From Rhizobium sp. CF080 (GTDB lineage Bacteria > Pseudomonadota > Alphaproteobacteria > Rhizobiales > Rhizobiaceae): 64,000 nucleotides of DNA. The notes beneath the pieces are model-generated. The model made no database searches and was not told where the DNA came from. It saw only the letters and a program-made list of their open reading frames with translations. The position numbers and the translations under genes were made by a program. The DNA lies in assembly GCF_000282095.2 (NCBI RefSeq), contig NZ_AKKC02000004.1, forward strand, positions 1,674,001-1,738,000, in the 5' to 3' direction. Positions 35,431-64,000 of the stretch are shown piece after piece. Each line of letters starts with the position of its first letter. The stretch's first letter is position 1.

Positions 35431-35450
35431 GCCAACTCCGGTTCAGATAA

Positions 35451-36410: not shown

Positions 36411-36437
36411 GGCCTTGTCTCCCGTCGTTATTGAATA

Positions 36438-37901: not shown

Positions 37902-37914
37902 GGCTTTCCTCGCA

Positions 37915-38976: not shown

Positions 38977-38979
38977 GAC

Positions 38980-40630: not shown

Positions 40631-40705
40631 TGTACTTCCTGCGTTGTGTCGTCAAAAGGCAAAGTGCATGCGCCGGCCTCGGTGATGGACCGGCGCAGGG
40701 GCACC

Positions 40706-41698: not shown

Positions 41699-41745
41699 TG
41701 GCTTCTCCTGTTCTGTTCCCGTTTATGTGGTTGGATCCACCCCAA

Positions 41746-42492
41746 TCAGTGGGCGTTCAAAAGAATCTGTAGCTCCGCGCGCACCGCCTTCAACTTGGAG
41801 GATCCGAGGTCGCGTGGACGGGCTGCGTCGAGCTCGATCACCGACTTGACGGTGGTCGGCTTGCTCGAAAGCACGACGATGCGGTCGGCAAGCTCAATCG
41901 CCTCCTCGATCTCGTGGGTGACGAAAACGATGGTCTTGCCGGTCTTTTTCCAGATCTCGACGAGTTCGGCGCGCATGTGGTGGCGCGTCTTGACGTCGAG
42001 TGCCGAGAAAGGCTCGTCCATGAGGATGATTTTCGGATCGACGGCGAGAGCGCGCGCGATCGACACACGCTGCCTTTCGCCGCCGGAGAGCATGCCGGGC
42101 ATCTTGTGCCCATCGCCGCCGAGGCCGACCAGCGCCAGGAGTTCACGCGCCTTACGATGCATGCTCGCGCGATCCACTGCGGAACCGAAGCGGAGCTGCT
42201 GGCCGAGGACGACGTTATCTTTCGCACTTCTCCAGGCGAGCAACCGCGGGCTCTGAAACACGAAGGCAATGTCCTGCCAGGCTTCGCTCGCCGGGCGGCC
42301 GCCAATGGCGACCTCGCCGGAGTCGACGGTAAGCAGGTCGGCGATCACCCGAAGCAACGTGGACTTGCCGCAGCCGCTGCGCCCGACGATGCAGAGAAAC
42401 TCGCCGTCCTTGATATCGAAGGAAAGCCGGTCGTAGATCGTCTCGCCACCAAAGGCGACACTGATTTCGTTGAGCCTGACAATAGCGTTCAA
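41746..42492 (-). CDS. ABC ATPase, SsuB/TauB type
   Basis: This 248-residue ATPase has Walker A GRSGCGKST, signature LSGGERQR, Walker B IILMDEPFSALD and the H-loop VTHEIEEA. It is of standard length with no regulatory extension. It is the first gene of the minus-strand importer operon that runs to 38980 and possibly to 34327. The promoter should lie in the 345-bp gap next to the MarR gene. Confidence 0.9.
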   Translation of the reverse strand: MNAIVRLNEISVAFGGETIYDRLSFDIKDGEFLCIVGRSGCGKSTLLRVIADLLTVDSGEVAIGGRPASEAWQDIAFVFQSPRLLAWRSAKDNVVLGQQLRFGSAVDRASMHRKARELLALVGLGGDGHKMPGMLSGGERQRVSIARALAVDPKIILMDEPFSALDVKTRHHMRAELVEIWKKTGKTIVFVTHEIEEAIELADRIVVLSSKPTTVKSVIELDAARPRDLGSSKLKAVRAELQILLNAH

Positions 42493-44928: not shown

Positions 44929-46299
44929 TCAACCGGATACGAGGCTCGTCATCAGAGCCGACATATCGCCGGCCCGAGCCGTGCTTATCCCTTTCAGGAC
45001 ATCCTCCTGTCGGGGGGTGCTCAAAACCATCCGGGTCGCAGCGCGGAATTTGGCTTCCAGCTCGTCCGATGACAGTGGATTGCTTGCCTCCCCTTTTGGC
45101 GTGGTGACCTCGGACACGAAACGTCGGCCATCTGCAATAATCGAGACGCGCGCCAGGGTCTCGGCCGGAAACCTTGCGTCGAAATCCATGTTGAGCGACA
45201 GGTTCACCTTCTCCGACAGCTTCATCACGTTCTCCTGCCCCAGCGCATCGGGCATCAGCGGCAACAGGACATGCGGCCCGGAAAGGGCTGCGAGCGCCAT
45301 GCAGTACGGAACACTGTATTGGACGTCTATGATATTCGCGGGCCTTGTCCGGTTCGATATACGCAATGCTCCGCTCGTGGTCTCCACCTCCATTAGGTCA
45401 ATGGTGTCTGCATCGATCGCGTTCTGTTCGATCACCTGAAGCATCGCATCGAGTGGCGCATGAATATGACGGCAGCAGGCATAGAGCTTGAAATAGGCCT
45501 TGCAGATATGCGGGTCCGCGCCGAGACGAAGGTCCTCGGCAAACCGGTAGTGACGGGCACTGTCCAGAATGTTGCGTGGCCCTGTATGCCCCGCTTCAGC
45601 AAGGTTCAACGCGACCAGGCCTGTGACGACCGACCACGGTATGCCTTCCTTGACATCGCTGCCCTCGGGAGCCGGGACCCGCGGTGCTGGCGCACTCGCG
45701 AACAATTGGTTGGGTGCGCTTTCTCCGGCAATTGCCAAGGCATGCGCCAATATGTCGGAAGGAGTAAGGAGCAAGGCTGCTGCCGTCGCAACGATGGCAT
45801 AGGCGGACCAGGTTCCGGTATTGCCGTAAGATGTGCGTGCGGCCCCGATCGCAACGCCGACTTCATAACCGATGACGATCGCGTTGATGATCTCGTCGAG
45901 CGACGCCCCGGTTTCGCCGGCCACGGCAAAGGCCGCCGGTATGACGGCAGCACCCGGATGACCGCGGGCCAACCTGTGGCCGTCATCGAGGTCGAGGGCA
46001 GAAGCCGAGGCACTGTTTGCCCACGCGGCGCCGATGATCGTGCTGGAAGCACCGGAAAACCAGATGGGCACGCCGCCGGTCCCCATGGTTGCCAGAGCCG
46101 TGCTCCGGACGGCCCGCACACCCGGCTGGTTTACGCCGGCCGCCGCGGAACCCAGGAGATCGATGATGCATCTGAAGGCTGCGTCGCGGGCGCGGGCGCT
46201 GACCGGCGTCCGTCGCGCCGCCTCAATATAGGACACGACGCGACCCAGCATTCCGTTTTCATTCAAGCCTTCTGTCCCATCGGTGGATCGGTCGCTCAC
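44929..46299 (-). CDS. MmgE/PrpD family protein (first copy)
   Basis: This 456-residue protein belongs to the MmgE/PrpD family, which includes 2-methylcitrate dehydratase and other lyases of multi-carboxyl substrates: ASASALDLDDGHRLARGHPGAA at about 75-97 (family HPG motif), EVGVAIGAART and LYACCRHIHAPLDAML. It is the last gene of the opine-like operon and overlaps the preceding stop by 4 bp (ATGA). A dehydration or decarboxylation step for a substrate that is not methylcitrate is likely. A second copy is at 58161. Confidence 0.85.
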   Translation of the reverse strand: MSDRSTDGTEGLNENGMLGRVVSYIEAARRTPVSARARDAAFRCIIDLLGSAAAGVNQPGVRAVRSTALATMGTGGVPIWFSGASSTIIGAAWANSASASALDLDDGHRLARGHPGAAVIPAAFAVAGETGASLDEIINAIVIGYEVGVAIGAARTSYGNTGTWSAYAIVATAAALLLTPSDILAHALAIAGESAPNQLFASAPAPRVPAPEGSDVKEGIPWSVVTGLVALNLAEAGHTGPRNILDSARHYRFAEDLRLGADPHICKAYFKLYACCRHIHAPLDAMLQVIEQNAIDADTIDLMEVETTSGALRISNRTRPANIIDVQYSVPYCMALAALSGPHVLLPLMPDALGQENVMKLSEKVNLSLNMDFDARFPAETLARVSIIADGRRFVSEVTTPKGEASNPLSSDELEAKFRAATRMVLSTPRQEDVLKGISTARAGDMSALMTSLVSG

Positions 46300-47405
46300 G
46301 TCGCCACCGCCTTGTTCTTGATTTCGCTGGGTGGAGCGTTGACCGGATATCCTTCCCTGACAAGTCTCATCAACACGTCTCTATCCAACGGTCCAAGTTC
46401 GCGAAGAATGTCGTTGTCGGTCCCGAAATCCCTGCCGTAGCAGGCGCCCAGAAGTTCGATGCCGCTCTCGTGCAATATCGCCTTCACCCCGCACATCCGT
46501 GCAAGCTGCAGGGTAGGCACAAGTCCGAAGGGCACGTCTTCGAGAACGTAGCGGGTGTTGATATCCTTGGGACCCGCCAGATCTTTTCCGTTCTCGGCAA
46601 GGTTCGCGTAAATCTCCGCCACGGAATTTCCGGATATGCCGTACGACAGGGCCGCATGGTCGAAAATGGTGCGGACCGTCTTGCCGAAGGCGCAGGCGAT
46701 CGCCAGCCTTTCCCGATCCAGGCGCTCCAAGAGCCTCGCCACCGCCGCCGTGATATTCGAATTCTGCCCCCACGTTTCCCCACGCTCCATGCGTGTCAGG
46801 TTGCACAAAGCAATTGCCATATGGCTTTGCGGGTTGAGATTGCTGAGCGCAATCGTCAGCAGGTCGTCCTTGATCAGGAACCGGTCGCCGAAAAGCGCGA
46901 CACAGGTCTCTTGGACACTTTGCGCGAGCCGTGCAGGCAGCACCGCCATATCAACTTTCGACCGGATCGCGCCGATCCTGACATTCAGCGGCAACGACGC
47001 CTTGGCCGTCAGGATCGTGGTATTCCACACCGCGATCGGAATCTGGAGGCCACGTTCACTCAGTTTCCTGGCCAGATAAAGGGCCGCGAACGAAAGGTGG
47101 GCGCTTATGATGACGGTATGGCGCGCGTCCAGATGCGCTATCAGGCTGTCCAGGACCATTCTGTAGCCATAGGCCGGCAAAGCCACGACGATGATGTCGC
47201 AGGTCGCAAGCTCCTCCGCGCTGCTGCATGTCGGCGGGTGAAAATCCCCCTCAATCGCCCCCGCCACAGTCAGAGCCCTGCCCTCGGCAAGCCCTACGGT
47301 GCTTTTTCCCGAAGGAGACCAGAGCCGCGCATCATGGCCGTTGTTCAACAGAAACGCCGCATACCCCATGGCGATCGCGCCGGCTCCGGCGATGCCCACC
47401 CGCAT
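46296..47405 (-). CDS. Octopine/nopaline dehydrogenase family protein
   Basis: This 369-residue protein has an N-terminal nucleotide motif (GIAGAGAIAMGYA) and the C-terminal octopine/nopaline dehydrogenase domain, shown by LSNLNPQSHMAIALCN (the catalytic His region) and RYVLEDVPFGLVPTLQLA. Opine dehydrogenases join an amino acid and a 2-keto acid with NAD(P)H, or act in reverse. I use the ATG at 47405; ATGs at 47408 and 47411 are very near. It lies 84 bp after the ATPase gene in the same transcript as opine-oxidase-like genes, which is unusual. Confidence 0.85.
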   Translation of the reverse strand: MRVGIAGAGAIAMGYAAFLLNNGHDARLWSPSGKSTVGLAEGRALTVAGAIEGDFHPPTCSSAEELATCDIIVVALPAYGYRMVLDSLIAHLDARHTVIISAHLSFAALYLARKLSERGLQIPIAVWNTTILTAKASLPLNVRIGAIRSKVDMAVLPARLAQSVQETCVALFGDRFLIKDDLLTIALSNLNPQSHMAIALCNLTRMERGETWGQNSNITAAVARLLERLDRERLAIACAFGKTVRTIFDHAALSYGISGNSVAEIYANLAENGKDLAGPKDINTRYVLEDVPFGLVPTLQLARMCGVKAILHESGIELLGACYGRDFGTDNDILRELGPLDRDVLMRLVREGYPVNAPPSEIKNKAVAT

Positions 47406-47488
47406 CATCATTCTACCTTTCCGATTTGTGTTAAAGCCGCATTGCCTTGCGGAAAATCCAGCAAGGCAAAGCAGCGGCGCCGAGTGGA

Positions 47489-49360
47489 TCAATCCACCCG
47501 GAAGAGATGACCGGGGGAGGCCTCGTGATACTGACGCGCCGGCGGATTGAAGCCGACCGGACGGATCGGGCTCTTCAACTCGTCGACCACCATGTTGCGC
47601 TTGATGCTCCGCCGCGCCGGATCCGGAACCGGCACGGCCGCCATCAGCTTCCTCGTATATTCGTGCTGCGGGTTCTCGAACACCGCGGCCCGCGAGCCGA
47701 TCTCGACGATCTCACCGAGATACATCACTGCCACCCGGTGGCTCACCCGCTCCACCACCGCCATGTCGTGAGAAATGAACAGGAAGGCGACGTTGAGGCT
47801 CTGCTGAAGGTCGAGCAAAAGGTTGCAGACCTGCGCCTTGATCGACACGTCGAGCGCCGACACCGCCTCGTCGGCCACGATCACCTTCGGATCGAGCATC
47901 AGGGCACGGGCAATCGCGATACGCTGCCGCTGGCCGCCGGAGAATTCGTGCGGAAAGCGCGTCATCATGTCGGCGGAAAGCCCGACCTTTGCGAGCAGCA
48001 TCGCCGTCTTGTCGCGCGCCTGCGCCTTCGTGCCGATCGAATGCTGGATGAAAGGTTCCATGATGGCCGCGCCGATGCTCAAGCGGGGATTGAGCGAGGC
48101 ATAGGGATCCTGGAAGATCATCTGGATCGAACGACGCATCTTCCGAAGCGCCGACTGATTCAGTCCCATGACATCATGCCCATCGACCGTGACGCTGCCG
48201 CTGGTCGGCGTGATCAGCCGCGTCACCGAACGGCCGGTGGTCGACTTGCCACAGCCCGATTCCCCAACGATCGACAGTGTCTCGCCTTCGAACAACGCGA
48301 ACGAGACATTCTCGACGGCATGCACGGCGCCAGTCTTGCGACCGAACAGGCCGGACCGGATGTCGAAACGGGTGGTCAGATCCTTCACCTCAAGGACCGG
48401 TCGCTTCGTGCGCGCGACAGTGTCGGAAACCTCGGCCAGCGGGACCTGCTCTCCGGTCGTCATATCGACGGTTGGAAATCGGAGCGGAAGATCACGACCG
48501 CCCATCGAGCCCAATCTCGGCACGGCCGATAACAGGGCCCGCGTATAGGGATGCTTTCCGCGGTGGAAAATGTCACCCGTTTCGCCTGTCTCTACCGCAT
48601 CACCGCGATACATGACGATCGTGCGGTCTGCCACCTCGGCGACGACACCCATGTCATGCGTAATGAACAGGACCGACATCCCCTCCTCATCCTGAAGGGT
48701 CTTGATGAGATCGAGGATCTGGCCCTGGATCGTCACGTCGAGCGCGGTGGTCGGTTCATCGGCGATCAACAGCTTCGGTCGCGATGCAAGCGCCATGGCG
48801 ATCATCACACGCTGGCGCATGCCACCGGAAAACTGGTGCGGATATTCGTCGAACCGGTTCCGCGCATTGGGTATCCTAACCTTTTCGAGGAGACGGATGG
48901 CTTCTGCCTTGGCGGCGGATTCGCTGATGTCGGTGTGAACGGTCAACGCCTCGGCGATCTGTTTGCCGATCTGGAAGATCGGATTGAGCGAGGTCATCGG
49001 TTCCTGGAAGATCATCGCAATATCGTTGCCGCGCACGCGACGCATGTCCTCCTCCGGCAGCGCAAGAAGATCGCGGCCGCGGAGCACCACCTGGCCTTCG
49101 ATCCTGCTGGACGCTGGTGGCAAAAGCCGCATGATCGATAGGGACGTGACGCTCTTGCCGGAACCCGACTCGCCGACAATGGCGACGGTTTCCCGCGGAG
49201 CGACATCGAATGAGATGTCGCGGATCACGGTCTTCCAGCCGCCATTGACCCGGAACGAGGTCGTCAGGTTGCGAACCGCAAGCACCGGCGCAGCAGAACG
49301 GGAAACGGGCGCTTTTTCTGTTGCGAGATACAATGCCGGTTTGTCTCCGATCAGGTTCAT
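47489..49360 (-). CDS. Fused dipeptide-type ABC ATPase (DppD-DppF)
   Basis: This 623-residue protein has two ABC domains with Walker A GESGSGKS and GESGCGKST, signatures FSGGMRQR and FSGGQRQR, and Walker B segments LLIADEPTT and [11 protein letters not shown]-terminal oligopeptide-type extension ends each domain. It starts at 49360 with an ATGA overlap of the permease stop. It serves the permeases at 49357-51173 and, very likely, the receptor at 56123. Confidence 0.92.
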
Positions 49361-50235
49361 GCCTGGTTCCTCGTCTTGGGGTCGATCGCATCGCGCAGCG
49401 CATCACCGAGAATGTTCAGCGCCAGGACGGTGAGCAGGATTGCAAGAGACGGGAAGACGACCAGCCACCAGGCGCTGAGGATATTGTCGAAACCCTCGCG
49501 GATCATGCCGCCCCATGTTGCAGTCGGGGGCAGAACGCCGAGACCGATGAAAGCGAGCGAGGCCTCGGTGCGGATCGCCGAAGCCATCCACAAGGACGCG
49601 ACGACAACGATGTCGGAAAGGATGTTGGGCAGGATATGCAGTCGCATGATCCTGAGAGGCGTAAAGCCCAGGGACCTGCCGGCCTCGACGAAATCACGGC
49701 GCTTCATGGCGATCGTCGGCGCTCGTGCAACGCGCGCGAAAGGCGCAGTCTCCGTGATGGCGATCGCGATGATGAGGTTTTCGAAACTCGCGCCCAACAT
49801 GGCGGCGATCATCAGCCCGAGTAGAAGGGTCGGAAACGAAAGCATGACATCGACGATCCCCATTACCACCTGATCGAAGACGCCGCCGATGTAGCCGGCC
49901 AGGATTCCGAGGGCCGATCCAACGACCATGGCAATCAGCACCGCCAGGAACCCTATGGAAAGCGAAATCCTCGCACCATAAAGCAGGCGTGAAAGGACAT
50001 CGCGGCCATAACTGTCAGTTCCGAACCAGAAGTCGGCCGCAGGCGGGGTCAGACGATGGAGAATGTTCTGCTTGATCGGATCGTAAGGCGCGATCATCGG
50101 AGCGAAGATCGCCAGTAGAACGATCAGGGCCAATAGCCCGATGCCGATCCAGGAGAAACGGTTTCGGCGCAGCGCCGCGAGCACCGGGTTCGATTGCCGT
50201 TCAGGCATGCTTGAAGAAATAGCGAAAACGGTCAT
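49357..50235 (-). CDS. Oligopeptide-type ABC permease, DppC-like
   Basis: This 292-residue permease has the DppC layout: an N-terminal anchor, a periplasmic loop with [17 protein letters not shown] and an EAA loop ([14 protein letters not shown]...LPNIL). It is coupled by ATGA overlaps to the DppB-like gene upstream and to the ATPase gene downstream. It is paralogous to the permease at 16369 but clearly different, so the two importers are independent. Confidence 0.9.
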
Positions 50236-51173
50236 GATGCGTAGCTCACTCTGGGGTCTACGAGGGCGTAGATGATATCGGTTGCGGTATTCACGAGGAT
50301 CACGAATGTCGCAAACACCACCATCAGGCCCTGCAGCAGGGTATAGTCGCGGGATTGCAGGGCGCCGAGAATGAGCTTACCGAGACCGGGCCGGGTGAAC
50401 ACGATTTCGGTCAGCACCGAATTGCCTATCAGCGTGCCGAAATACAGACCCACGACCGTCACGATCGGGATCAGTGCGTTGCCCAGCGCATGGCGCAGGA
50501 TCAGTTTCGTCGGCCGCACGCCCTTGGCCCGGGCGGTGCGGATATAGTCTTCGCCCATCACGTCCAGCATCGAGGATCGGGTGACGCGCGCGATGTAGGC
50601 GGTCATGATCAGCCCTAGATTGAGCGCCGGAAGCGCAAGGTTCCGGAGATGGCTGATCGGGTCCGTGGAGGCGCGGCTCATCACCGGCAGCCATTGCAGC
50701 CAGACCGCAAAGGCGAGAAGCATCAGGATGCCGGACACGAAACCCGGAAACGACAGGCCGATCAGCGACAGGACGCGGCTGACATAATCCGGCCAGCGAT
50801 TGCGCCGGACCGCCGCGACAACGCCAAGCGGAATGCCGAGGCAGGTTCCGATGAGCATGGCGGCGGCGGCGAGTTCCAGCGTGTATGGAAGCACCAGCGC
50901 CACCTCTTCCAGAACCGTCCGGCCGCTGGTCATAGAGCGGCCGAAATCGCCGCTGAGCATGTCGGTCAGAAATCGCACGTATTGGACGGCGATGGGCTGG
51001 TCGAGACCCAGCTGGGCCCGCAGGGTCTGCAGCGTTGCTGCACTCGCCCGATCTCCCAGCATGGCGACCGCAGCATCGCCTGGGACGAGCCGAACCAGGA
51101 CGAAGACCATAGTCAGCATCGCAAGTACGGTGGGGATCGCCAGGAGCAGTCTCCGGATCACATAACCGATCAT
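50232..51173 (-). CDS. Oligopeptide-type ABC permease, DppB-like
   Basis: This 313-residue permease has the DppB layout: MIGYVIRRLLLAIPTVL as the first span, LVRLVPGDAAVAM after it, and an EAA loop (DYIRTARAKGVRPTK...ALGNALIP). ATGA overlaps tie it to the flavoprotein gene before and the DppC-like gene after. Its operon position says that it imports the substrate of the opine-oxidase-like complex. Confidence 0.9.
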   Translation of the reverse strand: MIGYVIRRLLLAIPTVLAMLTMVFVLVRLVPGDAAVAMLGDRASAATLQTLRAQLGLDQPIAVQYVRFLTDMLSGDFGRSMTSGRTVLEEVALVLPYTLELAAAAMLIGTCLGIPLGVVAAVRRNRWPDYVSRVLSLIGLSFPGFVSGILMLLAFAVWLQWLPVMSRASTDPISHLRNLALPALNLGLIMTAYIARVTRSSMLDVMGEDYIRTARAKGVRPTKLILRHALGNALIPIVTVVGLYFGTLIGNSVLTEIVFTRPGLGKLILGALQSRDYTLLQGLMVVFATFVILVNTATDIIYALVDPRVSYAS

Positions 51174-52291
51174 GCAGCAGCCCTTTCCTTGGAGAGGCGC
51201 TCAACATCGAACGCACCGAGATCATGACGGGTTTGGCCCTTGCAAGCCAGATCGGCCACCACGCGGCCGACCGAGGGAACGAGCTGGAAGCCGTGGCCTG
51301 AGAACCCGAAAGCATGGATGAGGCCCGGCGCCCCGCGGGAAAAACCGATGACGGGAAGATGATCGCGGGTCATGGCTTCCATGCCGGCCCAGGTCCGCAC
51401 AATCCGCAGGCCCTTCGTCTTCGGAAACAGACGGACAGCAGCCCCGACCGATGCGGCAAGTGCCACGAAATCCACACTCGCGGACTGCCGGTCGGCCGCA
51501 AGCCTGCCCTGCGATCCGCCGCCGATCACCATGGTTCCTTGGGCGGTCTGCTTGAATGACAATTTCTTTCCAAGCGAACTGACGACGGGCTTGACCCGGG
51601 TCTGGGTACGCTCCGTCACAACCATCATGGAGGTGCGAATGGACTGCTGGACCGGTTCGCCCGCCAGCGCGGCGACCTGATCGGCCCAGGCCCCGCCGGC
51701 GTTGACGATTATGCTGGCCTCAAAGACGCCTCGCGACGTCTGGGCCTGCCACCGATCGTTGCGCCGCTGCAGCCCGGTGACCAGGCACTCCTCGTGGATC
51801 TCAACGCCGGCGCGCAGGGCGGCATCGCGAAACGCGCAGATCGTCCGGTGTGGGTCGGCGGAACCGTCGCCCGACACCCAGGCGCCGCCAAGACAGTGCG
51901 GGGAGAGGTCGGGCACCAGCTCTTGCATCTCTTCCAGGCCGATCATGGTCTCATGCATGAAACCCTTCGACTGGAGCGCCCTCACCCTTGCCTTGATCTT
52001 GCTCAACGCCGCCTCGTCCTCGGCGACCTGCAACTGCCCGCAGGCGGTAAACCCGCAATCGTCGCTGACAAGCTCGGCCATCTCGTGCCACATCCCCGCC
52101 GCCTCGAGGCTGAGCGGCAGTTCGGCGGGGTCCCGTCCCAGCGTGCGCACCCCGGCCGCCGTCGCACCGGAGGCGTGCCGACCGAGAAAATGCCGTTCGA
52201 CCAGGATGACCGACGCGCCGCGCCTTGCGGACTGGAGAGCTGCCGAGAGCCCGTGCAAACCGCCGCCGATGACCAGGATATCCGCGTTCAT
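51170..52291 (-). CDS. DAO-type FAD oxidoreductase, opine/glycine-oxidase-like (second)
   Basis: This 373-residue DAO-family flavoprotein has IGGGLHGLSAALQSARRG at residues 6-23 for FAD binding, GGAWADQVAALAG in the middle and AGMEAMTRDHLPVIGFS near the end. Family members oxidise secondary amines of amino acids (sarcosine, opines, hydroxyproline). Its ATG at 52291 overlaps the upstream stop by one base (TAATG). It may be a second catalytic subunit, or a distinct enzyme acting after the complex. The substrate is probably an N-substituted amino acid. Confidence 0.85.
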   Translation of the reverse strand: MNADILVIGGGLHGLSAALQSARRGASVILVERHFLGRHASGATAAGVRTLGRDPAELPLSLEAAGMWHEMAELVSDDCGFTACGQLQVAEDEAALSKIKARVRALQSKGFMHETMIGLEEMQELVPDLSPHCLGGAWVSGDGSADPHRTICAFRDAALRAGVEIHEECLVTGLQRRNDRWQAQTSRGVFEASIIVNAGGAWADQVAALAGEPVQQSIRTSMMVVTERTQTRVKPVVSSLGKKLSFKQTAQGTMVIGGGSQGRLAADRQSASVDFVALAASVGAAVRLFPKTKGLRIVRTWAGMEAMTRDHLPVIGFSRGAPGLIHAFGFSGHGFQLVPSVGRVVADLACKGQTRHDLGAFDVERLSKERAAA

Positions 52292-53664
52292 TATGCCTCC
52301 TCCAGATCGCCGAGAGCCGCAATTTCCCCAAGCGTCACGGGCTTCAGCGGCGGGCGGATGTTGAAGAAGCTGACATCGGCGAGCGGCAGGCCATGCACCT
52401 CGGCAACGAGCGCCTGCACCGTGTAACCGCATTGCCGTCCCTGGCATGGACCCATGCCGCAGCGCGTCGCGGCCTTCACGGCATTGGGATCGGGCGCGCT
52501 GACCTTCGCGACCGCACGGATCTGCCCAGCAGTGACCTCTTCGCACCGACAGACGACGACCTCGTCCGCGAGATGCTCCGCGGGCGGCGGATAAAGCGCA
52601 TCGAGAAACGGCCGTAGCGCACGGGCACGGGAAAGCCGTTCGTCCAGCCCCGCCTCGCGCCGCAGGCTGTCGGCGTCCGGAGACCCCCCCAGATATCTAG
52701 CTATTCCAAGCGCCGCGATCTCGCCCGACAGCGTCGCGGCAAGCCAGCCGCCGATCCCGCCGGCATCGCCGGCCACAAACAGCCCCGGCCGGCTGGTTTC
52801 GCCCCACTGGTCCAATCGCGCCGAGAAATAGTTCTGGTCGGAGTTCCAGTCGTGAACACAGCCGAGCGCCATCGTCTCGTGAATGCGCGGCACCACGCCT
52901 TCATGCACAAGCAATACATCCGCCCTGACCTTGCGCTGCTCGTTGCCGGCCCGCCACTGGAGATGCTGGAGACGTCCCTCACCTTCGGCATGCAGATCGC
53001 TGAAGCCGCGGACCATCCGGCCGCTGCGCTTGAGGTCCCAAAGCCAGCGAACCCCTTTGAGCAAGCCCGGAATATCGCGCCATGCGCCAGGAAGGCTGCT
53101 CAAGGCTGCCAGTCCGGGCCGCTTGGACGTGTCGAGGAAGCCGGCGATCCGGCCTTCAAGGCCAAGGACCTGGGTCGCGTAGAGCAGCGGAAGCGGTCCG
53201 GCACCGGCAATCCACACCTCGCCTTCCGGCAACATGCCGCCGGACTTGAGGAGGATTTGCGCTGCCCCGACCGTCATGACGCCCGGAAGTGTCCAGCCCG
53301 GAAACGGCACCGGCCTTTCCTGGGCACCGTTCGCAAGGAGCACCGCGCGCGCCTTGATGCGACGGGCCTTTCCCTCCGAAGTCAGGAACAGGTTCCATCC
53401 CTCTTCGATCTGCCAGACCTGTGTCGCCGGCAGATACTCGGCGCCACTGTCTCGGAAAGCTTCGACGAGCGTGGCGCCTTTCTGGTAATCGGCTCCCAGC
53501 GCCGCCGAAACCGGTCCGGCATTGCGCTCCACTCCGCGCCAGATCTGGCCTCCGGGCGCGGCCTGCTCGTCGACCGCCGCAACGGCAATACCCGCCTTGC
53601 GCAACTGGATTGCAGCCGACATTCCGGCCGGCCCGGCGCCGATTACCACGACATCGTAGGTCAT
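52291..53664 (-). CDS. FAD/[2Fe-2S] oxidoreductase, OoxA/HcnB-like subunit
   Basis: This 457-residue protein has an N-terminal FAD motif (IGAGPAGMSAAIQLRKAG), a second dinucleotide fold (IAGAGPLPLLYATQ) and a C-terminal BFD-like [2Fe-2S] region with VVCRCEEVTAGQI and CGMGPCQGRQCG. That is the architecture of octopine/nopaline oxidase subunit A, HcnB and hydroxyproline dehydrogenase subunits. It would pass electrons between the catalytic DAO subunit and an acceptor. Its ATG overlaps the 2Fe-2S subunit stop (ATGA). Confidence 0.88.
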   Translation of the reverse strand: MTYDVVVIGAGPAGMSAAIQLRKAGIAVAAVDEQAAPGGQIWRGVERNAGPVSAALGADYQKGATLVEAFRDSGAEYLPATQVWQIEEGWNLFLTSEGKARRIKARAVLLANGAQERPVPFPGWTLPGVMTVGAAQILLKSGGMLPEGEVWIAGAGPLPLLYATQVLGLEGRIAGFLDTSKRPGLAALSSLPGAWRDIPGLLKGVRWLWDLKRSGRMVRGFSDLHAEGEGRLQHLQWRAGNEQRKVRADVLLVHEGVVPRIHETMALGCVHDWNSDQNYFSARLDQWGETSRPGLFVAGDAGGIGGWLAATLSGEIAALGIARYLGGSPDADSLRREAGLDERLSRARALRPFLDALYPPPAEHLADEVVVCRCEEVTAGQIRAVAKVSAPDPNAVKAATRCGMGPCQGRQCGYTVQALVAEVHGLPLADVSFFNIRPPLKPVTLGEIAALGDLEEA

Positions 53665-53960
53665 TTGGAAATCTCCCGTGGGCCATGCTGGCTCTCGATC
53701 CGCATTCCCGGCGCCACGGGCACCAGACACCCCTGCGTCGAGGCCACTCCGTCGACGATCACCAGACATTCGAAACAGACACCCATCTGGCAATAGGGCA
53801 GACGCGGCTCGCCGCTGACGGTCGACCGCCGTTCGGCTCCCGGCGCGCGCAAAAGCACGCTGGCGACCGTTTCACCATTCCAGGCGGCGGTCTCCGCTCC
53901 ATTGACGAACACGGTCATGTCCGACGCCTTGCCCGGTTTGTCATGCACACTTTTGAACAT
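53661..53960 (-). CDS. Small [2Fe-2S] subunit, HcnA/opine-oxidase gamma-like
   Basis: This 99-residue protein has a single [2Fe-2S] cluster fold with cysteines in YCQMGVCFECLVIVDG and a fourth at STQGCLVPV. It is the same kind of subunit as HcnA and the small subunit of several opine or hydroxyproline oxidases. The start at 53960 overlaps the preceding gene by 20 bp and has GGAAGA before it; an ATG at 53918 is an alternative that would remove 14 residues. It bridges the two flavoprotein subunits. Confidence 0.85.
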   Translation of the reverse strand: MFKSVHDKPGKASDMTVFVNGAETAAWNGETVASVLLRAPGAERRSTVSGEPRLPYCQMGVCFECLVIVDGVASTQGCLVPVAPGMRIESQHGPREISK

Positions 53961-55050
53961 TGAATCTTCCGTTGGAAAAGGGCGCCAGGTCGTCAGGCAG
54001 ACGTCCGTTGGCGATAGCCGGCGCGATCACGTCGGTATGGGCCGCGGCAAGGGTCACGCCCGAGTGGCAAGCCACTGCGAAAAGACCGGGATGATCGCTC
54101 GACTCGGCATAGATCGGCGTCTTGTCGAGCGGCAGGACGCGCAATCCCGCCCATTGCCTGACCAGCCGGGCGGATCCGAGCGCCGGTATGATCCGGGTCG
54201 CCCTTTGCGCAAGCTTGGTCGCCGATGCCGCGGTCACGGCGGTGTCCGCTATCTTCTCGTTTGTCGCGCCGATCATCACCGTCCCGTCGGCACTCTGCCT
54301 GAGACCGCTTGCGGGAAACGGCAGGATGGGCGCCACGCGTTCCGTGACGAGAATTTGCCCGCGCTCCGACTTCAGAGGCATGGCAAGTCCAAGCGGCTCG
54401 GTCAGCCCCGGCGTGGCGAGCCCCGCCGCAACCACCACACGCGGCGCCTGCAGCGTCCCGTCGGAAACGGAAACGCGAAAACCACCGGAAACGGGCATGA
54501 TCCTGTCTATTGGGTTGCGGAACAGGATTTTTCCTCCCAGAGCCGCGATCGCGCGGTGCAGTGCCGCCAGAAGTTGCAGCGGGTTTACATGTCCATCGAG
54601 CCTGCAATAGCTTGCCCCAACGACATCCGGGCCGAGGGTCACCGCCGGAAGCATGCGCTCAAGCTGCACGCGCGAGACCATTTCCGTATCGGCCTGGGCT
54701 CCCTGATTGTGTGTGCGCTCGTTGACTGCATGGCGGTTGGCGTATTCCATCTCGCTCAGACAGTAGACGAGACCGCCCGGCCGCGCGTAATCGACGCGGC
54801 TGGTCGAGATATTCGAAAGCTCGTTCAGGAAACCGGGCCAGAGATCCGAGCTTTGCCGGGTCAGGGCACTGTAGGCGGGCGCATCGGACCCCTTGCCTTG
54901 CACCCAGATCAGGCCGAAATTCGCCCGTGCCGCGCGCAGGTCGCGATCGGCACCGTCCAGAACGACGACGCTTCGACCCTTTCGTGCAAGGCCATAGGCC
55001 AAAGCCGCACCGACCACGCCTGCCCCGATAACGATGACGTCACAATCCAC
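53941..55050 (-). CDS. DAO-type FAD oxidoreductase, OoxB/HcnC-like (first)
   Basis: This 369-residue DAO-fold protein begins with DCDVIVIGAGVVGAALAYGL (FAD motif) and ends with HSGVTLAAAHTDVIAPAI, as opine-oxidase beta subunits and HcnC do. I use the GTG at 55050 after GGGAGAA; a TTG at 55104 would add 18 residues overlapping the control region. It is the first gene of a nine-gene operon ending at 44929 and would be the catalytic subunit that oxidises an imported N-substituted amino acid. HCN synthesis is unlikely, given gene order and transport genes. Confidence 0.85.
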   Translation of the reverse strand: MDCDVIVIGAGVVGAALAYGLARKGRSVVVLDGADRDLRAARANFGLIWVQGKGSDAPAYSALTRQSSDLWPGFLNELSNISTSRVDYARPGGLVYCLSEMEYANRHAVNERTHNQGAQADTEMVSRVQLERMLPAVTLGPDVVGASYCRLDGHVNPLQLLAALHRAIAALGGKILFRNPIDRIMPVSGGFRVSVSDGTLQAPRVVVAAGLATPGLTEPLGLAMPLKSERGQILVTERVAPILPFPASGLRQSADGTVMIGATNEKIADTAVTAASATKLAQRATRIIPALGSARLVRQWAGLRVLPLDKTPIYAESSDHPGLFAVACHSGVTLAAAHTDVIAPAIANGRLPDDLAPFSNGRFNVQKCA

Positions 55051-55122
55051 CTGGGTTCTCCCTAACTCTCTTGTCACAATCTTGTCAGAAAGGTAGAAAG
55101 TCAAAGTCGATTATTTTGCCGC

Positions 55123-55143
55123 GGTATTCAGGGGGGTTATACC
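55123..55143. promoter_or_regulatory. LysR box, copy 1
   Basis: GGTAT (55123-55127) and ATACC (55139-55143) flank 11 bases, matching the T-N11-A LysR-type consensus exactly. It sits between the divergent flavoprotein and LysR genes, touching the LysR ribosome site. The surrounding 44 bp (55101-55144) match 33 positions of a sequence at 57731-57774. Confidence 0.7.
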
Positions 55144-55144
55144 A

Positions 55145-56047
55145 ATGAGAAATCCGAGTCTGAGGCAGCTCGAAGCGCTGATGGCCGTGGTCGAGGCGGG
55201 CACAGTCAGTCGGGCCTCCGAAATATTGCGTATTTCCCAACCTGCCGCGAGCAAGCTTATCCAGGATCTGGAGGCCGATACCGGGCTGCAATTATTCGAA
55301 CGCGACAGCGGACGGCTGGTGCCGACAGGCCGCGGAATGCGGCTCTACGAGGAAGTCGAGCGCATCTTCGGCGGGGTCAATCAATTAGCGCGTGCTGTCG
55401 AAGCCATCCGTCGTGAAGAGCATGGCCAACTGTTCATCGGCACCATGCCGGCCCTGTCGGGCCCGTTCATCACGCGGGTATTGAAGCTGTTCCGGGCCCG
55501 CCATCCGGACGTCTTCGTATCGGTGGAAGCCAGAAGCTCCCAATATCTCACCGAAGCGGTGCTGCTGCGGCGGCTCGACGTGGTTTTGGTCATTAGCGGG
55601 CTGGAGCACCCATCGGTCATCGCGGAAGCCGTGAAGAACCCTCCGGCAGTCGTCGTTCTGCCCAGGGGGCATCGTCTTTGCAAAAAGGAGGAACTGACGC
55701 CGCTCGAACTTGCGGAAGAACCGTTCATCGCTTTCGGGCCGACCAGCATGATGCGCCGGAAGGTCGATTCGGCTTTCGACGATTATGGACTTCGGCCCCG
55801 GATCGTCATCGAGGCGACAACGGCTCCGAACGTTGCCGAATTCGTCGCTGCCGGCCTGGGTGTCACCATCGGTGATCCTCTCTCCATGGAGATCGTCGCG
55901 GATCGCGTGGCCGTCCGCCGGTTCAGGCCGGAACTGGCTTTCGAATACGAGATCGTCCGGCCGGTCCGCGCCCGTAACAGCAGCCTGGTTGCGGATTTTG
56001 TCGAGGCCACCCATGCTGCGGCGCTGACGACGACGATATTGCCATAA
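55145..56047 (+). CDS. LysR-family transcriptional regulator
   Basis: This 300-residue regulator has an N-terminal HTH (residues about 5-60: LRQLEALMAVVEAGTVSRAS, LRISQPAASKLIQDLEADTG) and a C-terminal effector-binding domain with IGTMPALSGPFITRVLKLFR and VIEATTAPNVAEFVAAG. It is divergent from the nine-gene operon and next to the receptor gene. LysR boxes precede both, so it is the likely activator of uptake and oxidation. The box covers its own ribosome site, so autorepression is plausible. Confidence 0.92.
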   Translation: MRNPSLRQLEALMAVVEAGTVSRASEILRISQPAASKLIQDLEADTGLQLFERDSGRLVPTGRGMRLYEEVERIFGGVNQLARAVEAIRREEHGQLFIGTMPALSGPFITRVLKLFRARHPDVFVSVEARSSQYLTEAVLLRRLDVVLVISGLEHPSVIAEAVKNPPAVVVLPRGHRLCKKEELTPLELAEEPFIAFGPTSMMRRKVDSAFDDYGLRPRIVIEATTAPNVAEFVAAGLGVTIGDPLSMEIVADRVAVRRFRPELAFEYEIVRPVRARNSSLVADFVEATHAAALTTTILP

Positions 56048-56053
56048 CGAAAA

Positions 56054-56101
56054 TGCCTCGCCTGAGACGATCCGCCGTCAGGCGGCGCTCAGGTCGAGGC
56101 A
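56054..56101. terminator. Large hairpin terminator between convergent genes
   Basis: Three nested perfect arms stack: TGCCTCG with CGAGGCA, CTGAG with CTCAG, and CCGCC with GGCGG around a four-base loop. The structure spans 48 bp and lies between the LysR and binding-protein stops. It probably ends both transcripts. Confidence 0.75.
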
Positions 56102-56122
56102 AGGCTTGGGGGATTTGATCGT

Positions 56123-57682
56123 TCAGCGTTTCAACACGGTCTTTTCGGTGATCGGCGGAGCGAGATTGAGAGAGCCCTTCAGTTCATAGCCGTAATCCAG
56201 GGCCTTGCTGCGAACCCAGACCTGCATCAGGCTGAAAAGCGGAACCGCGCAGACCTGCTCGAAGATCTTCTTCTGTGCAGATGACCACAACCTCAGCCGC
56301 TCGGCGTCCGAGCTTGCCCGCCGCGCGGCGGTGATATCGGCATCCGCCGCATTGCAATGGGAGAAGTTTGTGACGGCTGTCGGCTTACCCATCGCGGCAT
56401 CCGAGTGGTAGAACTGACTCAGATAGCTGTCAGCGACAGGATAACGCGCGGCGCCGTAGAAAACGACATCGCCGAGATCCTTACGGATCTGTTCCTGGTA
56501 CGTCGGGTGATCTACGACTTTCATCTGCAGGTCGATCCCCGCCTCTCCGAGTTGCGCCTGGATGACCTCCATGATCGGAAGCTGCGACGAGTTAGACGAG
56601 ACGACCGCCGAGAGCTTCACGCCCTTGGCAAAACCCGCTTCCGCGAGCAGCTTCTTCGATGCGGCCGGGTTGAATTTGTAGGTCCAGCTACAGTCTTCCC
56701 CAAGGTAACCGGACGGAACGACAGAGCAGCCCTTCGGTCCGACGCCGGCTCCCACGAACTGCACGATCTGGTCGACATTGATGGCTTGCGCCACGGCCTC
56801 ACGGACTTTGACATTGTCCAGTGGCGGATGTGTCATGTTGAGAAAGACAGTGCGGTATTCGCCGGGCGCGAAGATATCCACGACGGCAGCGTCCCATGCC
56901 TTCGCCTGATCGACCCACCGCTGCTCCCGCTTGCCGTAGATGAGATCCAGTTCGCCCGAGCGGAATGCCAGTTCCCGGCTCGAGTCGGTCGGGATAAGGT
57001 CAAACCGGATGCCGTCCAGTTTCGGAGCACCGCGGAAATAGCCGGGAAAAGCTTTCAGGTTGACCGCCTGTTGGGTGACCGCGCTTTCGAACATGAACGG
57101 ACCAGTGCCGATCGGCCGGCTCTTGAAATCCGCCCCGAGCTTCTCGAAGGCTTTCTTGCTGATGATGTTGCCGCCATGATAATTGGCGATCAGCCCGAGG
57201 AAGCCCGGAACCGGTTCGTTCAAGGTAATCCTGACGGTTGTCGGATCCACGGCCTCGATCGCTTTCACACCGGAAAAATCGCTAGAGAAAGACGAGGTTT
57301 TCGGATCCTTGGCCCGCATCAGGGAGAAAACGACGTCATCCGAGCTCAGCGTCCCGTAGTCGCCATGGAATTTGACATTGGGCCGCAGTTTGAATGTCCA
57401 GACCAACCCATCCGGCGACGAAGTCCAGCTTTCGGCCAAATCAGGTTCGATCGACGCCGGATCCGCGCTTCCCGGGGGGAAACGCACAAGCCCGTTGAAC
57501 ATCCAGGACACAAGCGTAACATCCGCGGTTGCCGTTGCGCGCGCGGGATCGAGGGTCGATATATCGGGCGCGTTGATGCCGACTTTCAGCGTCTCCGCCA
57601 TGGCAAGCTGAGGCAGCGCAGCCATGGCGGCGAGCGAGATTGCAAATGCGGTTACGGCTCCGGTTTTATTCTTTTGGACCAT
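56123..57682 (-). CDS. Oligopeptide-type ABC substrate-binding protein (family 5)
   Basis: This 519-residue receptor starts at the ATG at 57682 after a near-ideal AAGGAGGTGA. A Sec signal (TGAVTAFAISLAAMAALPQL) ends near AMAE. The mature part has the family-5 signature: ISTLDPARATATADVTL, WTFKLRPNVKFHGD, DDVVFSL and TGPFMF. It is separated from its probable permease and ATPase genes by the LysR gene, but a matching LysR box lies upstream. It is the likely receptor for the opine-like or N-modified amino acid substrate. Confidence 0.88.
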   Translation of the reverse strand: MVQKNKTGAVTAFAISLAAMAALPQLAMAETLKVGINAPDISTLDPARATATADVTLVSWMFNGLVRFPPGSADPASIEPDLAESWTSSPDGLVWTFKLRPNVKFHGDYGTLSSDDVVFSLMRAKDPKTSSFSSDFSGVKAIEAVDPTTVRITLNEPVPGFLGLIANYHGGNIISKKAFEKLGADFKSRPIGTGPFMFESAVTQQAVNLKAFPGYFRGAPKLDGIRFDLIPTDSSRELAFRSGELDLIYGKREQRWVDQAKAWDAAVVDIFAPGEYRTVFLNMTHPPLDNVKVREAVAQAINVDQIVQFVGAGVGPKGCSVVPSGYLGEDCSWTYKFNPAASKKLLAEAGFAKGVKLSAVVSSNSSQLPIMEVIQAQLGEAGIDLQMKVVDHPTYQEQIRKDLGDVVFYGAARYPVADSYLSQFYHSDAAMGKPTAVTNFSHCNAADADITAARRASSDAERLRLWSSAQKKIFEQVCAVPLFSLMQVWVRSKALDYGYELKGSLNLAPPITEKTVLKR

Positions 57683-58160
57683 GTTCACCTCCTTATTATG
57701 CGCGAATACGGCCACGTTTACGTATAAGTGTCAAAGTCGCTATCTTTGCTCCGGTATTCAAATAGGTTATATCAAAGTCACAGTGGCTGAATCTGACGGG
57801 TGCCAATCGCGAATCTTTTCGTTTCACGCGGCGCCACTAGAACGGGGGTTTCGGCCACACGTCAGCGCCATATTGGGCAATTACGACCAAACTGTCCGGG
57901 TCACTATTGCCGAGTGCTGACAACTCGCAAGTTATGTTGCTGTTAGGTCCAAAAAAACGGGCGCCGTGGCGGATCTCTGCGTCCGTATTGACGTATTCCC
58001 GAATGGGCTAGCGCGCGCTACCAATACATCGTCGAACCCCGAGCAGGAGCGGAAGCAGTCATATCATGCTTAGCGGAAATGAGGTTGTCGATTTAGCGAG
58101 TTGCAATGCAACGATATCGGCCCCACGCGATTGCGCGTGATTTTGTAGGCAAGTCGGCCG
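57683..58160. other. Intergenic region upstream of the receptor gene
   Basis: This gap of about 480 bp carries the second LysR box (57753-57773) near the receptor gene. The remainder, up to the MmgE/PrpD stop at 58161, shows no coding similarity and no obvious RNA fold. Confidence 0.5.
57753..57773. promoter_or_regulatory. LysR box, copy 2
   Basis: GGTAT (57753-57757) and ATATC (57769-57773) flank 11 bases, repeating copy 1 with one mismatch in the dyad. It lies about 70 bp upstream of the receptor start and would tie this gene to the LysR regulon. Confidence 0.65.
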
Positions 58161-59474
58161 TCATTGAGAACTCAACAAACCCGAAACAGTAGATCGCAAA
58201 GTGTCGTAGAGGTCACCCGGAACGTGATTTCCCGCAATTTGGCGATCGCCGCCCAAAAAAAACTGGCCGGCATTCCGCAGGTCGTCGGCGGTAAGCTGCA
58301 TGAACTTGGCTACGACGCCGTCGCCATCGAGACCGCCTGAAGCCAGGTCAAATCCTTTGCTCACGGCGACCAGCGCGTTCTGCACCTTGCCTCTGACGGT
58401 CCGGATCGAAAGACCCGGTTGCTCTGCATGTTCGAAGCGGAAAGCGAATGTTTCGGAATTGTCGGCGATCTCGGTCTCCCATCGCGGTCCAGGCTCCACG
58501 TGGTCAATCAGCTTGGAGAACAAGGCCCGCAGGCTGAAAGCGATGTCTGCAGTGCCGGCAATGACGGGTGAGCAGAATTTCTCGACATCCTCGGGGCCGT
58601 AGACGATGATCTCCTCGATCCTATCCTCAGGTTCGACTGTTTCGAGGAGGTCGGAGAGCGCCTTCAGATATTGCTGGGTGTGCCAGCAACCCGGAAAGCG
58701 TTTGAACCCCACGCGAAGGACAGCCGGCTTCATGGCCAGGGGTTGCGGATCAGGCTGCCAGCGGTCGGAACCCGCCATCCGCCACATGCCGTTTTCTCCA
58801 TCGAGCACATTGGTCACGCCGGTCTGTCCCGCCTCCGCCAGATTGGCGGAGAGAACCGCACCCATGGCGATCCAGCCCATGTTGTTTTTCATGGCCGGCA
58901 CCGGCCGGTCATACCATTTGGCGGTGTATGGCAGGATCGTATGGGCTGCCGCCACTCCGATCACCCGTTCGATCGCCTCCGCGTCGGCGTTCCGGGCGAT
59001 CAGTATGCCGATCGCCGCTGCGACCGTGTCCCAGATGCCGACCGACCGGACATTCGCCGCGTGCTGGGGAGAGGGCAGCGCGGCCGAACAAAGGAAGGCA
59101 TGGGCTTCATATCCGCCGGCGATACCCCCCAAGATCCTGTCTTCGGGCAAGTTCTCTTCTGCGGCAATGGCCAGCACAGCGCCGACGATCGGCGCACCGG
59201 GATGCCCGATCAGGGTATCGTCGTAATCCAGCGCGTTGCTCGCCTGCCCATAGACATAGGCGGCGCCGGCCGCACTCGAGATATGCGAGAAGCTTTTCTG
59301 GAAGCCGATCAGAGACTGCTGAAAATGATGCAGGCCGAGACCGGCTGAAAAGCATGCAAGGCTGTCGAGCAGGCATAGTTTCGTTCGCGCCAATACTTGC
59401 GCGTCCCAGTCGCCGTCGCGATAACGACCGAGGTGAGATACCAGTGTCGATGGCGTGCTGCCTGGATGAGACAT
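58161..59474 (-). CDS. MmgE/PrpD family protein (second copy)
   Basis: This 437-residue MmgE/PrpD protein has SNALDYDDTLIGHPGAPI at the family HPG motif, GYEAHAFLCSAALPS and FPGCWHTQQYLKAL. It is different from the copy at 44929. The ATG at 59474 has GGAGCC upstream. It is the last gene of the polyamine-type importer operon. The family dehydrates or decarboxylates di- and tricarboxylates such as 2-methylcitrate, aconitate or itaconate, and a substituted malate or citrate derivative is a reasonable guess. Confidence 0.85.
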   Translation of the reverse strand: MSHPGSTPSTLVSHLGRYRDGDWDAQVLARTKLCLLDSLACFSAGLGLHHFQQSLIGFQKSFSHISSAAGAAYVYGQASNALDYDDTLIGHPGAPIVGAVLAIAAEENLPEDRILGGIAGGYEAHAFLCSAALPSPQHAANVRSVGIWDTVAAAIGILIARNADAEAIERVIGVAAAHTILPYTAKWYDRPVPAMKNNMGWIAMGAVLSANLAEAGQTGVTNVLDGENGMWRMAGSDRWQPDPQPLAMKPAVLRVGFKRFPGCWHTQQYLKALSDLLETVEPEDRIEEIIVYGPEDVEKFCSPVIAGTADIAFSLRALFSKLIDHVEPGPRWETEIADNSETFAFRFEHAEQPGLSIRTVRGKVQNALVAVSKGFDLASGGLDGDGVVAKFMQLTADDLRNAGQFFLGGDRQIAGNHVPGDLYDTLRSTVSGLLSSQ

Positions 59475-59484
59475 TAAACGGCTC

Positions 59485-60570
59485 CTACCGGTCCAGAAGA
59501 CGGATCGCTTTCGCACCGATCGAAACGGTGATCGGCTGCCCGGTCTTGAGCGTGCCGCTGCGGTTGGACCTGACCAGCGCCTTGATCGTCATGCCCGGAT
59601 CGACGGAGACCCAGAGATCGAGGTGGGCGCCCAGATTGACGATCTTCGCGATCGTGCCGTCAAAGACATTGTCATCCGGCAGCGGCTGGGCTCCATTGTC
59701 CACCACCCTGACATCCTCCGGCCGGATGCAGCAGAATTTCGCAGTCGCCAGCGTGGAGGCATCGCCCTCCACCCGAAGCGTCAGGGGAGTTCCACCGATG
59801 GAGATCTCCCGGCGATCGCCGGCTGCCTGCTTGACCGCCACCGGCAGGATGTTCGACTTGCCGATGAAATCCGCCACGAAGCTTGTGGCAGGGCTGTTGT
59901 AGATTGCCTCTGGCCTCCCCTGCTGCGCGATCACGCCGCCGGCCATGACGACGACCCGGTCCGACATCGCCATCGCCTCCTCCTGATCATGGGTGACGTA
60001 GACGAAGGTCATGCCGAGCTTTTCCTGGATTTCCTTCAGCTCGACGCGCATCGCCTCGCGAAGTTTCAGGTCGAGGTTGGAAAGGGGCTCGTCCAGCAGG
60101 AGTACGGAGGGCTTGGGAGCGATGGCCCGGGCAAGCGCGGTGCGCTGCTGCTGTCCGCCGGACAATTCCTTCGGATAACGGGCATCTAGTCCCTCAAGAT
60201 GGACGCTCTTCAGGGCAGCCTTGACCGCCTGATCGATTTCGGCGCGCGGCGCGCCTTTCATCCTGAGGCCGAAACCGACATTTTCGGCAACGGTCATATG
60301 CGGAAAGAGGGCGTAGTTCTGAAAAACGAGACCGATGTTCCGCTTTTCCGGTGGCGTTCTTGTCTGGCAGTTCCCGCGTATCCGGATTTCGCCCGAAGTC
60401 GGCTCCTGAAAGCCAGCGATCATGTTGAGCGTGGTGGTTTTTCCGCAACCCGAAGGGCCGAGCAGGCTGACGAACTCGCCCTTGGGAACCGAGAGGCTTA
60501 CGTCATTCACCGCACGAAAGTCCCCAAACGTCTTGCACACGGAAACGAGTTCGATGTCGATGTCGCTCAT
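59485..60570 (-). CDS. ABC ATPase, PotA/FbpC-like
   Basis: This 361-residue ATPase has Walker A GPSGCGKTT, signature LSGGQQQR, Walker B VLLLDEPLSNLD and a C-terminal TOBE domain (FCCIRPEDVRVVD). PotA-type domains power spermidine/putrescine, iron or thiamine importers. Its ATG overlaps the permease stop (ATGA), and it stops 10 bp before the MmgE/PrpD start. Confidence 0.9.
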   Translation of the reverse strand: MSDIDIELVSVCKTFGDFRAVNDVSLSVPKGEFVSLLGPSGCGKTTTLNMIAGFQEPTSGEIRIRGNCQTRTPPEKRNIGLVFQNYALFPHMTVAENVGFGLRMKGAPRAEIDQAVKAALKSVHLEGLDARYPKELSGGQQQRTALARAIAPKPSVLLLDEPLSNLDLKLREAMRVELKEIQEKLGMTFVYVTHDQEEAMAMSDRVVVMAGGVIAQQGRPEAIYNSPATSFVADFIGKSNILPVAVKQAAGDRREISIGGTPLTLRVEGDASTLATAKFCCIRPEDVRVVDNGAQPLPDDNVFDGTIAKIVNLGAHLDLWVSVDPGMTIKALVRSNRSGTLKTGQPITVSIGAKAIRLLDR

Positions 60571-62265: not shown

Positions 62266-62276
62266 CGTGCGCGCTC

Positions 62277-63875: not shown

Positions 63876-64000
63876 ATGCTTCGGATCGGCGTCGATATTG
63901 GCGGCACATTCACTGATTTTTGCGGCTGGCGCGAAGGCGAGCACGACGTCATCAGCCTCAAGGTGCCATCCACACCCCCCGCATTTGAGAACGGCTTCCG
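63876..64000 (+). CDS. Hydantoinase/oxoprolinase family protein, N-terminal part (partial)
   Basis: The last 41 codons begin MLRIGVDIGGTFTDFCGW, the N-terminal strand and phosphate-binding motif (DIGGTFTD) of HyuA/oxoprolinase ATP-dependent hydrolases. AAGAGAA lies before the ATG. It continues beyond the window. It opens a unit divergent from the polyamine-type importer, so this importer may carry a hydantoin-like compound. HyuA homologues also include acetone- and methylhydantoin-type carboxylases or hydrolases. Confidence 0.85.
   Translation, partial: MLRIGVDIGGTFTDFCGWREGEHDVISLKVPSTPPAFENGF

Follow-up and report, generated by a model that had tools for sequence, protein, structure and literature searches.

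The analysed stretch of DNA, hereafter called the window, comprises 64,000 nucleotides of Rhizobium sp. CF080 (contig NZ_AKKC02000004.1, positions 1,674,001 to 1,738,000) and contains an operon of nine minus-strand genes running from position 55104 down to 44929. Families were assigned from open reading frame translations and from Pfam and NCBIfam profiles. Four genes encode putative subunits of a flavin opine dehydrogenase (OpnDH). These are beta-1 of the SacE/NoxB type with a DAO fold (53941-55104; PF01266, 190 bits; R-x-W motif), whose start is uncertain and lies either at the TTG at 55104 or internally; the 2Fe-2S gamma subunit of the SacF/NoxC type (Fer2_4; 53661-53960; PF13510; C-x4-C-x2-C-x12-C); alpha of the SacG/NoxA type with FAD and BFD domains (52291-53664; PF07992 and PF04324); and beta-2 of the SacH/LecH type, again with a DAO fold (51170-52291; PF01266, 242 bits; nearest solved chain 1y56_B), for which the start was read at 52291 and not at 52546. 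They are followed by an importer made up of the permeases SacB (DppB type; 50232-51173) and SacC (DppC type; 49357-50235) and the fused double ATPase SacD (GsiA-like; 47489-49360; two ABC_tran stretches). The last two genes encode a putative catabolic NAD(P) opine dehydrogenase, odh (46296 to about 47411, with a start methionine at 47411-47405; Octopine_DH, PF02317, 111.3 bits against a cut-off of 30), and an MmgE/PrpD protein, a candidate opine epimerase (44929-46299; PF03972 and PF19305). Adjacent genes overlap by 1-20 bases, and the sole gap, of about 77 bases, lies ahead of the dehydrogenase gene. The operon is flanked by a plus-strand gene for a LysR regulator, SacR (55145-56047; PF03466 and PF00126), and a minus-strand gene for a periplasmic binding protein of the SBP_bac_5 family, SacA (56123-57715; PF00496). 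Profiles and the identities reported below thus bear out the original prediction, which had described nine tightly spaced or overlapping genes of these families with an adjoining receptor and LysR gene.

A succinamopine region has been described for the tumour-inducing (Ti) plasmid pTiEU6 (PMC6733357; NZ_KX388535.1). The pTiEU6 sac region displays the same order, namely binding protein, LysR, SacE, F, G, H, B, C, D and odh. Identities of the window proteins to their pTiEU6 counterparts were 75% for the binding protein, 73% for LysR, 64% for SacE, 73% for SacG, 70% for SacH, 88% for SacB, 90% for SacC, 81% for SacD and 61% for odh, so that the nine proteins scored span 61-90%; the short gamma subunit fell below the length limit of the comparison. 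The names DppB and DppC rest on the 88-90% identity to the annotated pTiEU6 permeases and not on Pfam. Both the order and the orthology of sacA, sacR, sacE-H, sacB-D and odh were found, and by sequence the window operon almost certainly corresponds to the succinamopine operon of pTiEU6 and is known in kind. Its function is very probably opine catabolism of the sac type. The two regions differ in their setting, a 1.9-Mb contig for the window's genome and a 176-kb Ti plasmid for pTiEU6, and in the MmgE/PrpD gene at 44929-46299, which is extra in the window and, with 26% identity to the pTiEU6 mmgE, not orthologous to it.

The correspondence extends to the right end of the window. Upstream of the binding protein gene lie, all on the minus strand, a second MmgE/PrpD gene (58161-59516) and the genes of a Pot-type importer, consisting of an ATPase (59485-60570; 62% to the pTiEU6 counterpart), two permeases (60567-61370 and 61381-62322; both PF00528; 68% and 66%) and a binding protein (62277-63320; SBP_bac_8; 53%). 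The start of hyuA (hydantoinase/oxoprolinase A) follows on the plus strand (63852-64000; 68% over 50 amino acids within the window). Past the right end, hyuA, hyuB and a second LysR gene are 62%, 55% and 58% identical to those of pTiEU6, whose sac region likewise carries the Pot importer together with the second mmgE, hyuA, hyuB and the second LysR gene. The second MmgE/PrpD protein is 53% identical to the pTiEU6 mmgE product (AgrTiEU6_38) and is its counterpart, a position for which the protein at 44929-46299 was considered and rejected (26%). With a match of this length, the locus amounts to an opine island of the sac type that spans about 24 kb, and not merely to an isolated operon. Neither this continuation nor the MmgE/PrpD protein as the odd one out had been noticed in the original prediction. 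A tblastn search (1e-5) of the window and the adjoining right-hand stretch, with the rest of the genome left unsearched, gave no match to the pTiEU6 asparaginase; sus likewise had no match at the window locus. For hyuA/hyuB, opening of lactams has been suggested (PMC6733357). These two genes also adjoin noc- and sac-type opine genes in other loci (L086, 425-4420; L046; L050; L114, 3264-7368).

Other opine operons share parts of this gene set. The leucinopine/L,L-succinamopine (lec) operon of pTiBo542 has the binding protein, LysR, importer, odh, gamma, alpha and beta-2 genes, but in the order BCD-odh-F-G-H, and beta-1 and MmgE are absent from the stretch fetched. The nopaline (noc) operon of pTiC58 has beta-1, gamma, alpha and odh (62% identical to that of the window), but differs by the presence of arginase and ornithine cyclodeaminase, between which its odh sits, and by the absence of beta-2 and MmgE from the stretch fetched. 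The view that opine catabolic loci normally lack a dehydrogenase of the synthase family is therefore wrong, as such a gene is present in pTiC58 noc, pTiEU6 sac and pTiBo542 lec; a synthase-like gene also flanks the flavin opine dehydrogenase cluster of P. putida (PMC4575208). Of the earlier proposal that the operon serves catabolism of an unknown opine, opine (iminodiacid) catabolism is supported by the pTiEU6 counterpart, while the supposed novelty of the combination fails. What is new here is the extra MmgE/PrpD protein as a variant of a known sac-type system.

The complete 11-gene run (binding protein, LysR, beta-1, gamma, alpha, beta-2, DppB, DppC, DppDF, odh and MmgE) recurs in Neorhizobium galegae, Rhizobium populisoli, a Sinorhizobium metagenome-assembled genome and Rhizobium sp. 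SSA_523, although the binding protein gene is truncated by the end of the fetched locus in all three of the former. The gene order is thus kept beyond one strain, the check that the original prediction had proposed, and the recurrence speaks against a chance arrangement. Microvirga carries the run without MmgE, and in Thalassospira marina the set is found on a plasmid in a different order. In the nearest loci (L002-L004), conservation is lower for odh and MmgE (44929-47411), at 67-74%, than for the remaining operon genes, at 80-95%. Among 54 fetched loci with dehydrogenase relatives (all 14 matches of one search and the best 40 non-own places of another), nine contain the flavin dehydrogenase alpha gene. 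Many of the remainder combine a Pot-type importer with a flavin monooxygenase, and some have an aminotransferase (clusters named from one representative each), so the family of this dehydrogenase is not confined to opine loci. The wide genome searches scored two to six candidates per genome, so that matches may have been missed; the phylum-wide search hit 3 of 398 genomes, with none beyond those from the order-level search. As a separate observation, the relatives in L052-L085, a broad group mostly 46-51% identical and present in many Rhizobiaceae, have neighbours in varying sets, namely a Pyr_redox_3 flavin protein, an importer of the Pot type, a carboxymuconolactone-decarboxylase-like protein, an HTH-cupin regulator and an aminotransferase, perhaps an uncharacterised pathway.

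Proteins like NoxB/OoxB and NoxA/OoxA together with a 2Fe-2S protein constitute a flavin opine dehydrogenase, and in the Bradyrhizobium arrangement OdhB1-C-A-B2, for which octopine is the demonstrated substrate, one alpha and one gamma subunit are common to two beta subunits (PMC4575208). The window resembles this arrangement in gene order, in that the gamma-alpha pair is flanked by two beta genes. Beta, gamma and alpha genes stand in tandem, and the motifs printed in PMC4575208 were found, namely GxGxxG in alpha and beta, C-x4-C-x2-C-x11-12-C in gamma and R-x-W in beta. For the alpha motif C-x-C-x15-20-C-x4-C the window protein has a spacing of x27, the same as SacG; the same scan gave 33 for NoxA of pTiC58 and 32 for LecG, so that these references, too, fall outside the printed spacing. 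Elsewhere in the genome nothing comes close to the alpha subunit (next match 35 bits versus 1028). The two beta subunits belong to different types. Beta-1 is 64% identical to SacE and 46% to NoxB, beta-2 is 70% identical to SacH and 51% to LecH, and each shares 23-27% with the opposite type.

The dehydrogenase gene is the sole PF02317 gene of the 7.05-Mb genome, which argues against an unrelated housekeeping member, the case that would have undone the original prediction. In a tree of 70 rows, all 19 proteins labelled as lying beside gamma/alpha genes fall into one group of 22 rows (95/98); plasmid rows were chosen for opine context, and two long rows (L050, L090) join with unsure placement. 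Within it, the window odh groups with its four nearest loci (100/100), and the adjoining group comprises the odh proteins of pTiEU6, pTiL51/94, pTiCFBP4996 and pAtCFBP4996a (95/88). Six synthases of the transferred DNA (T-DNA) type are placed elsewhere on very long branches. Consistent with this, identities of the window odh are 21-26% with nos, les and sus versus 56-63% with four catabolic odh proteins, and identity as a T-DNA opine synthase (nos, sus, les) was rejected. Besides the PF02317 domain and GxGxxA, it has His200 and Asp295, which align with His202 and Asp297 of N-(1-D-carboxylethyl)-L-norvaline dehydrogenase (CENDH; 1bg6; alignment positions counted by eye), the catalytic residues of that enzyme. 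We infer a second, NAD(P)-linked route of opine dehydrogenation. The role of odh in Ti-plasmid opine operons has been called unclarified (PMC6733357).

The genome gives 12 PF03972 matches, so that an MmgE/PrpD protein is in itself nothing unusual there. The subfamily of the ninth gene, by contrast, is linked to the flavin opine dehydrogenase. All 14 loci at or above a threshold of 48% identity have the alpha gene within 10 kb, as against 3 of 25 loci below 46% (L107, L108, L110; Fisher P 4.5e-8, which is optimistic given shared ancestry). This sample of 39 loci comprised L002-L004, found via the dehydrogenase, 11 of 30 plasmid rows listed among 435 records (H51-H58, H60, H67, H69), all 10 non-own matches of one search, all 14 new matches of another, and G1029. 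Leaving out L002-L004, linkage above the threshold is 11 of 11. The threshold was drawn from earlier loci, and in those fetched after it had been fixed (L141-L155) the alpha gene was found in the one locus above and in none of the 14 below. The odh gene lies within 10 kb of MmgE in 5 of the 14 loci, so the constant partner of MmgE is the flavin opine dehydrogenase and not odh. In Agrobacterium pAt2788b and A. vaccinii MmgE occurs with beta-gamma-alpha, amidase and RidA genes without odh, and the P. sprentiae locus combines it with an enolase-superfamily protein and RidA. In 10 of the 25 loci (L108, L111, L122, L147-L151, L153, L154), distant MmgE relatives (35-43%) also adjoin an importer of the Dpp type, 54-61% identical to the window DppB, and nine of these loci have no flavin alpha gene.

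Two metagenomic database proteins, P0058 (796 amino acids) and P0072 (787 amino acids), carry a PF02317 domain ahead of MmgE domains that are 60-61% identical to the window MmgE. Among eight references, the dehydrogenase part of both scores best against the Ti synthases of succinamopine and leucinopine type (29-31%, 143-160 bits); nos scored 97-100 bits and the catabolic odh proteins 74-97 bits (22-27%). That MmgE is joined here to a different branch of opine dehydrogenases suggests action on the opine itself, which we consider slightly more likely than not. No fusions besides P0058 and P0072 were found; a search of 385 genomes from the class, in which two candidates were scored for each, produced two matches at E 1e-80, and both covered only the MmgE part.

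The best solved sequence match of the ninth gene product is iminodisuccinate (IDS) epimerase (2HP0/2HP3), at about 21% identity. The MmgE/PrpD fold and His99 were both found in the sequence and predicted model. The loop with Tyr145, the second base of that enzyme, is shortened in the window protein; in the phmmer alignment this residue stands opposite a gap, with the invariant Tyr158 of the window MmgE nearby. Epimerase chemistry requires that a proton be taken from the carbon between the carboxylate and the secondary amine, as IDS epimerase does on an iminodiacid; that enzyme reportedly acts on a man-made chelator. A plain 2-methylcitrate dehydratase PrpD was rejected (33.6 bits versus a cut-off of 950 for NF042438, the sole NCBIfam model matched). 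In open-licence papers we found no report of an opine epimerase, opine epimerization or an opine racemase, and MmgE together with an opine only in a passage on the other pTiEU6 mmgE, for which a downstream role as a methylcitrate-type dehydratase is proposed (PMC6733357).

From the genes observed, their order, orthology and linkage, and the predicted fold, we infer substrate, direction and epimerisation as follows. The island would serve to break down N-(1,3-dicarboxypropyl) amino acid opines of the succinamopine/leucinopine type, probably including their lactams, in a genome that lacks a PF02317 opine synthase. Binding protein and Dpp-type importer would take up the opine, and HyuAB would open lactam forms. 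Two flavin opine dehydrogenases, beta-1/gamma/alpha and beta-2/gamma/alpha, may convert it to 2-oxoglutarate and the amino acid, the former acting on D,L and the latter on L,L opines, with Odh as a putative second, NAD(P)-linked opine dehydrogenase. MmgE/PrpD would epimerise the alpha-carbon of the opine, which would give the dehydrogenases access to both diastereomers and allow one dehydrogenase to use both epimers. We assign this explanation as a whole a probability of about 0.7. Its individual parts are graded separately. That MmgE acts as an epimerase is a proposal at slightly under even odds. Just as tentatively, the MmgE/PrpD subfamily might consist of opine epimerases that work without a cofactor and connect the D,L and L,L diastereomers of iminodiacid opines with stereospecific dehydrogenases. 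In some bacteria such an epimerase would be joined to an opine dehydrogenase in a single bifunctional protein, and the subfamily would represent the natural background out of which IDS epimerase could have arisen.

The assignment of the beta subunits is similarly tentative and draws on a comparison of opine types with the SacE, SacH and LecH content of pTiL51/94 and pTiBo542. Leucinopine of pTi6.2 tumours is most likely D,L and was not consumed by Bo542 and Chry5, which belong to L,L-leucinopine, while EU6 goes with D,L-succinamopine; the catabolic region of pTiL51/94 is highly conserved with that of pTi6.2 (PMC10410297). In pTiL51/94 SacE is intact and SacH is matched by fragments only, and in pTiBo542 LecH is present and SacE is absent from the stretch fetched. 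Several observations weigh against the stereochemical scheme and the epimerase. Octopine activity was obtained with both Bradyrhizobium beta subunits, though weakly with B1 (PMC4575208). Both beta types are present in 10 of the 14 linked loci, which would make an epimerase partly redundant there. Moreover, bsIRG1 is structurally as near to the window MmgE model as IDS epimerase is.

The last point favours an alternative to which we give about one chance in three, in which the island is the same but MmgE/PrpD works downstream on the released acid, as a methylcitrate-type dehydratase or as an isomerase or decarboxylase of polycarboxylates. Solved members of the family include 2-methylcitrate dehydratases and cis-aconitate decarboxylases, the loci of the MmgE subfamily differ in their other enzymes (amidase, RidA, enolase superfamily), and the same role is in print for the other pTiEU6 mmgE (PMC6733357). 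The fusions, as noted, suggest action on the opine itself.

It is unlikely that the operon degrades another N-carboxyalkyl compound, such as an iminodiacid metallophore or an N-carboxymethyl or N-carboxyethyl amino acid, and merely shares sac ancestry. The asparaginase that stands beside the operon in pTiEU6, and that would mark catabolism specific to succinamopine, was not matched nearby, odh and MmgE are the least conserved proteins, as if the substrate end varied, and the ATPase exceeds the cut-off of the staphylopine uptake models CntF and CntD. However, the importer is 88-90% identical to SacBC and the binding protein 75% to SacA, the CntA model scored the binding protein at 64.8 against a cut-off of 800, and hyuAB and the Pot operon travel along. 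An opine metallophore locus was rejected, since no staphylopine dehydrogenase family is among the Pfam matches of the dehydrogenase and CntA lies far below its cut-off, even though the ATPase passes CntD/CntF. Very improbable is a dehydrogenase running reductively, with the operon making or remodelling an opine. PF02317 does include the T-DNA synthases, and the fusion partner of MmgE in P0058 and P0072 resembles succinamopine synthase, but the window odh falls into another group, with low identity to nos, les and sus, and the presence of an importer and of flavin dehydrogenases speaks for uptake and degradation.

With these loci, sac-type catabolism is no longer tied to the crown-gall setting, as the gene set is also present in rhizobia, on a plasmid of a marine Thalassospira and, partly, in further families, a distribution that hints at opines from other sources. 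For the Ti-plasmid NAD(P) dehydrogenase there is now a setting in which its role can be studied, and the candidate opine epimerase, if real, would explain bacterial use of both epimers of crown-gall opines. Elsewhere in the window, at 34327-42492 on the minus strand, genes were found for an NMT1-type binding protein, two permeases, an ATPase, a ketopantoate-reductase-like protein, an M20-like peptidase and a luciferase-like monooxygenase.

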